NCBI GenBank assembly: GCA_021161465.1
Contig: JAGHAM010000005.1
Location: forward strand, 1-25,362
Origin: Candidatus Iainarchaeum sp.
Lineage (GTDB): Archaea; B1Sed10-29; WALL01; JAGHAM01
Reading direction: 5' to 3'
Length of the DNA stretch: 25,362 nucleotides
Under the pieces are notes generated by a model. It worked only from the letters and a program-made list of their open reading frames with translations. It was not told the DNA's origin and ran no database searches. Numbering within the stretch: position 1 is the stretch's first letter; each line of letters starts with the position of its first letter. This document shows, one piece after another, positions 1 to 15,460 of the stretch. A program made the translations under genes and the position numbers.

Positions 1-106
1 GTGCAACCCTTCTGGTGCAACCAATCTTCCTACAATCGGGATACGGATGATATTCCATCCCCTGCAGGTTTAGAAAGGGTGCAACCCTTCTGGTGCAACC
101 AATCTT
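1..106 (-). repeat. 28-nt direct repeat inside the putative T-loop intron of tRNA-Ser
   Basis: Bases 1-28 and 79-106 are identical on the plus strand, starting gtgcaacccttctggtgcaa, with a 78-base period. Each copy contains two shorter copies of GTGCAACC. The second copy ends at the inferred exon/intron junction. Two copies with one spacer do not make a CRISPR array. Confidence 0.8.
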
Positions 107-258
107 TTTGAACCCACGCGGGCTTGCGCCCACCGGCTTTCAGGAACCTATGCTCCCAGTCCCTCAGGGCACCTATGCCTTCAGGTCTATACCTTTAGGC
201 ATACACCTTTGGCATCAGTTCCTCAGGTTACTGGTGCATTTGGAACTTTGAAACCTCT

Positions 259-356
259 GGGGCTTGCCGTAGGCAACCCCTAAAGCGTGAACCGATTTGC
301 GGCCACACCTGGTGCTCTTACGCTGAGCGTAAGACACCTAAAGCGTGAACCGATTT
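259..356 (-). repeat. Duplicated module inside the anticodon-loop intron of tRNA-Ser
   Basis: On the minus strand, AAATCGGTTCACGCTTTAG occurs at 356-338 and again at 298-280, with a 58-base period. Each copy is followed by a strong hairpin. The first is GGTG..CTTACGC/GCGTAAG..CACC (338-311); the second is GGGG.TTGCC/GGCAA.CCCC (280-259). The hairpins differ in sequence but sit in the same place, so an old tandem duplication with compensatory drift is the simplest reading. Confidence 0.75.
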
Positions 357-431
357 CGCGGTTCGGTTACTCAAGGCCGGCGCGTTGAACCGAGCTTTGC
401 TACCTCCGCAGGCTATATATTCTATTCCAAA

Positions 432-14744: not shown

Positions 14745-14932
14745 CGCCCCGGCCGGGATTGTTCATGCTCTTCCAAAGGGGAAGGGCTTATAAGGGAAGG
14801 GGGAATGTGTCTCCCTTCCTTATTTTGAACCCGGGTCCTAGGATTTCGGCTCGAACCATGTCATGATGGTATGTATCAAAACCTTGGTTCTGATCGACAG
14901 TCCCAGATGATGGGCCGCTACACTACCGGGGC
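14745..14932 (-). tRNA. tRNA-Asp (GTC) with an anticodon-loop intron and a T-loop intron
   Basis: Acceptor GCCCCGG (14932-14926) pairs perfectly with CCGGGGC (14752-14746); discriminator G is 14745 and CCA is not encoded. Anticodon stem TGGGA (14905-14901) pairs with TCCTA (14843-14839), with one G-T pair. The loop CTGTCG-A gives anticodon GTC at 14898-14896. Intron 1 (37/38) is about 14894-14845 (50 nt), with an internal helix GAACCA/TGGTTC. T-stem CCGGG (14834-14830) pairs with CCCGG (14757-14753). The T-loop TTCAAA-T is interrupted by intron 2, about 14823-14759 (65 nt). Exon bases GTTCA pair with intron TGAAC at that junction, forming a splice-site helix. Removing both introns leaves 73 nt closely resembling archaeal tRNA-Asp. 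Only nine bases separate it from tRNA-Tyr, so the two are probably cotranscribed. Confidence 0.88.
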
Positions 14933-14941
14933 ATATGTTAG

Positions 14942-15079
14942 TCCCGCCTCCCGGATTTGAACCGGGGATCTATACCGGAAAGTTTATTCGCTTTCTGTCG
15001 GTGACAGCAAACGCGGCTAATAACGCCCATGGCGTTGATCTTTCTACAGCCGACCGCGTTACCCCTACGCTAAGGCGGG
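14942..15079 (-). tRNA. tRNA-Tyr (GTA) with one or two introns
   Basis: Acceptor CCCGCCT (15079-15073) pairs with AGGCGGG (14949-14943), with A73 at 14942. The D-arm GCGT/ACGC, T-stem CCCGG/CCGGG and an intact TTCAAAT loop are clear. The C1-G72 pair and anticodon GTA (15047-15045) both indicate Tyr. The preferred model has two introns: 15043-15003 (41 nt, at 37/38) and 14995-14973 (23 nt, variable region). This gives a perfect anticodon stem GTCGG/CCGAC and A38. The short intron has exon-intron helix CCGA/CCGG and inner helix AAAG/CTTT. A single 64-nt intron (15043-14980) gives the same 74-nt length but a stem with two G-T pairs (GTCGG/CCGGT) and T38. The variable region is seven bases in both models, slightly long. 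Confidence 0.85.
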
Positions 15080-15103
15080 TCTTGTAATTATTGCCATTCT
15101 CTT

Positions 15104-15113
15104 CTTTTTAAGC
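15104..15113 (-). promoter_or_regulatory. TATA-like box of tRNA-Tyr/tRNA-Asp
   Basis: The minus strand reads GCTTAAAAAG, centred about 29 bases upstream of the tRNA-Tyr 5' end at 15079. Confidence 0.45.
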
Positions 15114-15122
15114 TTTTCCAAA

Positions 15123-15191
15123 CTTTTCTTGATTAAACTTCTTCCTAAGAAGTTTCCCCTTTTCTTGATTAAACTTCTTCCTAAGAAGTTT
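15123..15191 (-). repeat. Two tandem copies of a 33-nt hairpin-forming repeat
   Basis: Bases 15123-15155 and 15159-15191 are identical, with a 36-base period and a three-base spacer. Each copy contains a perfect nine-pair inverted repeat, AAACTTCTT-CCT-AAGAAGTTT, preceded by CTTTTCTTGATT. They lie between the 3' end of tRNA-Arg and the promoter of tRNA-Tyr. They could act as terminators or RNA-processing signals for the tRNA-Arg transcript, or be protein binding sites; the sequence does not decide. Confidence 0.85.
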
Positions 15192-15209
15192 ATTGTGAGG
15201 AAATTTAAG

Positions 15210-15460
15210 TGGGACCGTCGAGAGTTTCCACCTAAGCAGATTGCGTAGCAACCTCTATGGGGGTGATAGGGGATGTATCCTATCTCACACGAGCGGATTG
15301 CGGGGTTGTTCCCAATCCCCCGCGGGGGTGATAGGGGGTGCATCCCCCATTTTGAACTCGAGTCACGGGCTGTTCAGGCCTTTCCTGTTATCAGAGATAT
15401 TCGCGTGTTCAGGAAAGGCACCCGAAGCCCGTAGGATGGTCCAGGCTACCCTACGGTCCC
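15210..15460 (-). tRNA. tRNA-Arg (TCG) with an anticodon-loop intron and a long T-loop intron
   Basis: Acceptor GGGACCG (15460-15454) pairs perfectly with CGGTCCC (15217-15211); A73 is 15210 and CCA is not encoded. D-stem GGGT/ATCC. Anticodon stem ACGGG (15432-15428) pairs with CCCGT (15369-15365); the loop CTTCGG-G gives anticodon TCG at 15425-15423. Intron 1 (37/38) is about 15421-15371 (51 nt), with a perfect ten-pair helix GCCTTTCCTG/CAGGAAAGGC. T-stem TCGAG (15361-15357) pairs with CTCGA (15222-15218). The T-loop TTCAAA-T is interrupted by intron 2, about 15350-15224 (127 nt). Exon UUCA pairs with intron UGGA in the same register as in tRNA-Asp. Splicing leaves 73 nt; the variable region is short (three bases). 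Confidence 0.87.

Follow-up and report, generated by a model that had tools for sequence, protein, structure and literature searches.

What gene lies between positions 15210 and 15460 on the minus strand of the window (the whole 25,362-nucleotide stretch of DNA analysed here), and what is the long insert that separates the two halves of its T-arm? The window belongs to a genome (G000) of 976 kb in 40 contigs, 93% complete, with an RpoB fragment 72–74% identical to those of named Ca. Diapherotrites MAGs. The evidence presented below makes it highly probable that this is a functional tRNA-Pro(CGG) gene whose T-loop holds one member of a family of bulge–helix–bulge (BHB) introns specific to that loop, and that this family has spread through most of the tRNA genes found in this Diapherotrites genome.

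Identity and structure of the tRNA-Pro(CGG) gene

The minus strand of the locus holds a full tRNA frame, with acceptor, T8, D-arm, anticodon arm and T-stem. The acceptor halves GGGACCG and CGGTCCC (15460–15454 and 15217–15211) are perfectly complementary, and the T-stem halves TCGAG (15361–15357) and CTCGA (15222–15218) pair with zero mismatches. Between TTCAAA and T of the T-loop lies an insert of 127 nt (15350–15224) at position 59/60, longer than the spliced 75-mer. A preliminary description of this DNA had reported this insert, its length relative to the mature tRNA and both sets of complementary halves, and its coordinates, lengths and stems were correct. The components of the gene are as follows.

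15210..15460, minus strand: two-intron tRNA-Pro(CGG) gene, 5' end 15460, discriminator base A at 15210; identified by ARAGORN on the spliced 75-mer and by its syntenic intronless G001 ortholog
15372..15420, minus strand: anticodon-loop intron, 49 nt, canonical position 37/38; the Pro(UGG) gene of the same genome has a similar intron
15351..15361, minus strand: 5' half of the T-arm, exon (T-stem TCGAG and loop TTCAAA)
15224..15350, minus strand: T-loop intron, 127 nt, position 59/60, two tandem SL1–SL2 modules
15227..15230, minus strand: intron UGGA, putative partner of exon UUCA in the central helix of a relaxed BHB motif (covariation with base 57 across the family)
15218..15223, minus strand: 3' half of the T-arm, exon (T60 and T-stem CTCGA)

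Splicing at T-loop position 59/60 is predicted from sequence, and the expected junction would be ...GAGTTCAAA joined to TCTCGACGG. ARAGORN reports zero tRNAs in the unspliced window, and reads the spliced 75-mer of 15460–15210 as tRNA-Pro(cgg). Chance pairing was ruled out as the origin of the frame: perfect 7+5 bp closure with T8 and a D-arm arises in 0 of 100 dinucleotide shuffles, compared with three times in the real 1.3-kb region (as tRNA-Pro, tRNA-Tyr and tRNA-Asp), in line with the earlier judgement that the geometry is not fortuitous.

The gene is tRNA-Pro(CGG), not tRNA-Arg. Its anticodon stem is CGGGC/GCCCG and its anticodon loop TTCGGGA. In the sister genome G001, the syntenic ortholog is an intronless 73-nt tRNA-Pro(CGG), 61/73 identical, with the T-loop TTCAAAT; the gene order Pro–Tyr–Asp is common to the window and G001. 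G010 has a nearly identical intronless Pro(CGG) with an empty T-loop. Within G000 itself, Pro(UGG) at C35:72575 matches Pro(CGG) at 65 of 75 exon positions; the 5' halves of the two genes, anticodon-loop intron included, are 79% identical. The preliminary description had instead called the gene tRNA-Arg(TCG) with a long T-loop intron, having only its register in common with tRNA-Asp. A one-base shift of the anticodon stem (ACGGG/CCCGT) does put UCG at the anticodon, but the shifted register leaves a variable loop of 3 nt, UCG was not found in a normal anticodon arm, and in place of Arg orthologs the relatives have intronless Pro(CGG), which already refutes that assignment. Given also the ARAGORN reading and the close relationship to Pro(UGG), we give the Arg identity practically no credence.

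Two further tRNA genes follow on the same strand, one of which has a second T-loop intron.

14942..15079, minus strand: tRNA-Tyr(GUA) with an anticodon-loop intron, an apparent second intron in the variable loop (read by comparison) and an uninterrupted T-loop; tRNA model match of 44.2 bits, G001 ortholog Tyr(gta)
14745..14932, minus strand: tRNA-Asp(GUC) with two introns; the spliced 73-mer is tRNA-Asp(gtc) by ARAGORN
14845..14894, minus strand: tRNA-Asp anticodon-loop intron, 50 nt, position 37/38
14759..14823, minus strand: tRNA-Asp T-loop intron, 65 nt, position 59/60, of the subfamily with SL1 UAAGGAAGGG..CCCUUCCCUUA

The Asp insert (14823–14759 within 14932–14745) has the same geometry as that of Pro, so the shared register proposed earlier holds; its 59/60 junction would be ...GGGTTCAAA joined to TCCCGGCC. 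A tandem direct repeat of 45–50 bp (AAACTTCTTAGGAAGAAGTTTAATCAAGAAAA) occupies window positions 15070–15200, between tRNA-Pro and tRNA-Tyr.

A family of T-loop introns across the genome

Pieces of the Pro intron and of the related Phe intron recur across G000. Sampling the stretches around search matches, which is not exhaustive and favours repeat-bearing genes, we found at least 24 loci whose T-loop is interrupted at this one position (7 of 24 delimited by hand), all of which would splice to TTCRA(A/G)T. They comprise Ala(CGC, GGC), Arg(GCG), Asp, Gly(CCC, GCC, UCC), His, Ile(GAU, UAU), Leu(GAG, UAG), Lys(CUU, UUU), Met, Phe, Pro(CGG, GGG), Val(GAC, UAC), Ser (two 3' halves at contig ends) and Thr (GGU and one 3' half). 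Automatic splicing was led astray by extra introns in Ala(GGC), Arg(GCG) and Pro(GGG), and the isotypes of these three were assigned by eye. An uninterrupted T-loop was seen in G000 only in Asn, Leu(UAA), Pro(UGG), Tyr and initiator Met. One type of spliced-out insert thus appears to have spread through nearly the whole tRNA set. The earlier view of two independent genes with the same junction was right as to register and too narrow in scope, the two being members of a genome-wide family. A tRNA on contig C10 that resembles Cys(GCA) has a T-loop starting with TGCGA, not TTCRA, and a short insert.

The Rfam tRNA model gives 8 matches in the whole of G000, compared with 27–44 in most relatives, and the interrupted genes must therefore serve translation. 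That they are decayed, unspliced pseudogenes is a reading we find very hard to credit: they are indeed invisible to standard tools, but their stems are intact and compensated across long inserts, and this 93%-complete genome yielded no Gly, Ala, Lys, Phe, His or Thr gene free of an interruption. Because T-loop introns hide tRNAs from ARAGORN and Rfam, such genomes look tRNA-poor, which distorts inferences about completeness and decoding.

A covariance model of the intron family, built from the subset alike in SL1 only (MAFFT applied to all introns mixed the subfamilies), yielded 24 matches in G000, 8 in G001 and 6 in G012, with little else convincing in 198 genomes. Where weak matches in distant genomes were checked, the loci mostly had no tRNA with a T-loop insert, G014 and G131 excepted. 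The curated Rfam covariance models gave no known RNA family or group I/II intron at gathering score, only chance-level matches below it, and the viral, plasmid and phage collections searched gave no match to the intron module.

Intron architecture and exon–intron pairing

Flanked by a 5' AAA and a 3' UGRA, a single intron unit of 45–67 nt consists of a pair of hairpins: SL1, as in AGAAGGGUUGCACCCUUUCU, and SL2, as in CCUGC..GUAGG, whose cap varies. Three sequence subfamilies follow the same two-hairpin plan; the T-loop introns of Ala and Lys are relatives of the window's Asp intron. T-loop introns range from 13 to 321 nt. Those of the Val genes (13 and 16 nt) are minimal, with no evident membership of the family, and the long ones (106–321 nt) are mostly tandem modules. 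Both modules of the Pro(CGG) intron are of the GGGGG..CCCCCUAUCACCCCC type, the motif CAYCCCCTATCACCCCC is present twice, and the fold z-score of the intron is −3.6. Two Ser arrays are identical save for one 83-nt module, and part of a tRNA-Ser gene with such an array lies at the edge of the window.

1..409, minus strand: 5' part of tRNA-Ser, ended by the contig edge inside an array of T-loop intron modules (the intron spans about 106 to 1); matching 3' halves lie at the start of C25 and the end of C34

Conservation across the aligned family reaches 100% for the T-stem pairs, four of the five showing changes on both sides, 100% for the UUC helix and 93% for SL1; the complete structure outscores its slid versions on all measures. 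In most introns, exon UUCR can pair with intron UGRA or CGRA, as in the central helix of a BHB motif. Exon base 57 and the intron base at the fixed facing position covary (A-U 19, A-C 0, G-U 2, G-C 7; Fisher p = 3e-5, with no correction for relatedness): an A at position 57 often faces U and never C, and a G mostly faces C. This covariation supports BHB pairing between exon and intron across the splice sites.

About a third of the introns have no fourth pair or have a four-base 3' bulge, a relaxed form of the motif. The pairings UUCA/UGGA in Pro and UUCA/UGAA in Asp agree with the preliminary description, which had given both genes three-base bulges; at the 3' side, the bulge in fact comprises four unpaired bases (AAC^U and CAA^U). 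The canonical three bases are found in most relatives and in several other G000 genes. SL1 occupies the place of the canonical inner helix and SL2 abuts the central helix, giving a three-way junction in predicted folds. Two features count against the explanation we favour: the UUCA/UGGA helix of the Pro intron, which includes one G-U pair, is absent from the minimum-energy fold, and ten G000 introns, the window's Pro and Asp introns among them, have a four-base 3' bulge, while SL1 takes the place of the canonical inner helix.

The modules might instead be kept and repeated for a role of their own after excision, as structured or circular non-coding RNA. The modular arrays, the conservation of the two-hairpin plan and core between families of the class, and a long conserved hairpin in the intron of a second genus (below) would suit such a role. 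We nevertheless hold it to be unlikely, as no Rfam family scores above threshold, lengths vary over the whole range given above and splicing geometry alone can explain the conserved fold.

Probable spread of introns between tRNA genes

The introns of different tRNAs are more alike than the genes that carry them: Phe and Gly are 89% identical in their introns and 61% in their exons, Phe and Ile 86% and 64%, and Ala and Asp 74% and 59%. Similar introns in dissimilar exons of different tRNAs are the pattern of transposing introns. Orthologous sites are also empty, in Pro(CGG) and Asp of G001 (both syntenic; the Asp exons are 69/73 identical, with no T-loop intron in G001) and in Pro(CGG) of G010, as expected of gain, although loss in G001 or G010 could in strict terms leave the same picture. 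These comparisons indicate that the T-loop introns of G000 have spread between genes rather than by descent. Common descent through tRNA gene duplication could account for some similar pairs, which are isoacceptors (Gly UCC/GCC, Pro CGG/UGG, Lys, Ala), but as a general account it is very unlikely, given how far intron likeness exceeds exon likeness in the Phe/Gly/Ile and Ala/Asp comparisons and given the empty G001 orthologs.

As to the route, we prefer, with less assurance, DNA-level copying between tRNA genes, which would proceed by recombination or gene conversion anchored in the T-arm. A less likely competitor is an RNA route, in which an intron, once excised, would be ligated into another tRNA, and reverse transcription and recombination would follow. 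The exact 59/60 position in every gene suits a reaction guided by the splice motif. However, no PF00078 reverse transcriptase was found in the incomplete assemblies of six genomes (G000, G001, G012, G131, G200 and G201), which leans against copying through RNA, though a host or virus enzyme is possible. Ever since transposition was reported in Thermoproteales, the gain and movement of archaeal tRNA introns have called for an explanation. With one site, one family, copies of varied age, empty orthologs and arrays differing by one module, donor, recipient and route could be read from sequence here.

The splicing endonuclease

G000 has one EndA gene, on contig C16, encoding 170 aa; this count holds for a 93%-complete genome, whose missing 7% could contain a second subunit. 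The protein aligns with M. jannaschii EndA (1a79) over its full length, broken by just one gap of one residue, and, as read from the alignment, keeps the three catalytic positions Tyr, His and Lys. By sequence it fits the alpha4 type, with a single alpha subunit of about 170–190 aa, a full-length match and the catalytic residues. No added specificity loop is evident in the alignment with M. jannaschii EndA. Most class relatives likewise have one endonuclease gene. The only other candidate for an endonuclease gene, a weak match (11.9 bits) to a 372-aa open reading frame on C38, was set aside as unrelated; by eye it resembles a TruD-type pseudouridine synthase.

Non-canonical introns have been linked to endonucleases with an added loop (PMC12397907, PMC4033280). 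On this current view, an alpha4-like enzyme without such a loop would not be expected to cut introns with a four-base bulge and SL1 at the inner helix (PMC4033280, PMC12397907). The introns of G000 would challenge the view that loop-less endonucleases handle canonical introns only.

T-loop inserts in a second archaeal genus

A second, unrelated archaeal genus (G131, G199–G202), with an RpoB fragment about 41% identical to the window's, has a T-loop insert of about 100 nt in its Lys, Leu, Arg, Glu, Ser and Asp tRNAs. Most of these tRNAs have similar inserts, and a genome gives as many as 15 matches. The insert, with the core GAGGGGACTCCCTCGAGGCGTGAGCGACATTCACAC, is unrelated in sequence to the G000 family, and colonisation of the T-loop thus appears to have had more than one origin. 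The endonuclease of this genus has two small insertions relative to that of G000.

The T-loop as a proposed landing site, and its precedents

In the explanation we favour, the intron unit would comprise SL1 and SL2, flanked by a 5' bulge (AAA) and by a 3' terminus of UGRA or CGRA, the latter pairing with the near-invariant host T-loop bases U54-U55-C56-R57. Because nearly every tRNA offers the same exon helix half (UUCRA), one intron would be excisable from any tRNA at 59/60, which would make the T-loop a general landing site. Units could stack in tandem, the Pro intron of the window being two. As in known archaeal biology, the single EndA would cut at both bulges and a ligase would join the exons to UUCAAAU. 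The geometry, the family, the empty sites in relatives, the exon–intron covariation and the array differing by one module are direct observations. A broader reading, which we find nearly as easy to accept as to doubt, is that the UUCRA exon half present in nearly all tRNAs makes the T-loop a universal landing site for selfish splice-out inserts, so that a portable intron may colonise a whole set, independently in at least two unrelated archaeal lineages and served by single alpha-type endonucleases thought too strict.

Position 59/60, tRNA intron transposition and intron-saturated tRNA sets in Asgard archaea were already known. Archaeal BHB tRNA introns occur at non-canonical positions including 59/60 (PMC4090602); as here, the exon supplies half of the central helix, motifs can be relaxed and a gene can have several introns, but those introns were not reported to form a repeat family present in most of a genome's tRNAs. 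Known archaeal introns are mostly below 100 nt (PMC4033280), in contrast to up to 321 nt in G000. The closest known case is the transposition of tRNA introns in Thermoproteales (PMC4090602, PMC4033280). There, similar introns likewise sit in different tRNA species of one archaeal group in a way that the tRNA bodies do not explain; they occupy several canonical and non-canonical positions and are served by a crenarchaeal (alpha-beta)2 enzyme, whereas G000 has one dominant T-loop site, tandem two-hairpin modules and one alpha-type enzyme, in a DPANN phylum. In Atabeyarchaeia and Freyarchaeia, 92–95% of tRNA genes have introns, often non-canonical and often several (PMC11291895). These tRNA sets are similarly saturated, but they belong to Asgard archaea, and the portion of that report cited here describes no T-loop family or module arrays. 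The epsilon2 endonuclease of ARMAN-2 is also found in ultrasmall archaea with non-canonical introns and relaxed motifs, and has a broad substrate range, but it is a three-unit fusion with a specificity loop, unlike the 170-aa EndA of G000 with no obvious loop (PMC12397907). Novel relative to these cases are the near-uniform use of one T-loop site, the arrays of modules, the lineage (Diapherotrites/Iainarchaeota) and the single alpha-type endonuclease without an obvious specificity loop.

Other intron sites and contig breaks

In tRNA-Asp of G001, the anticodon-loop intron contains GAAGGGCTCCGCCCTTTCTAAACCC, a core typical of T-loop introns, and the unit may therefore move between sites. The Thr, Ala and Ser anticodon-loop introns have another repeat (AACCGCGAAATCGGTTCACGCTTTAGGTG...) in common, found at the starts of C5, C2 and C32, in C28 and at window positions 470–110 (minus strand), with several contigs ending inside it; this is apparently a second spreading intron family, at 37/38. 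The tRNA-Pro(CGG) of G008 has a 139-nt anticodon-loop intron with two near-identical copies of GGGGAGACACCTACGGTTTCTCCCTCTATCCTCTTCC, a modular duplication at 37/38 too. D-arm introns seem present in Ala(GGC), Lys(UUU), Lys(CUU) and initiator Met, bringing the number to as many as three per gene. Finally, many contigs of the assembly break inside tRNA intron repeats, at window positions 1–409, at C25:1–260, at C34:6550–6844 and at the starts of C2, C5 and C32, and the repeat introns are thus the probable cause of these breaks.
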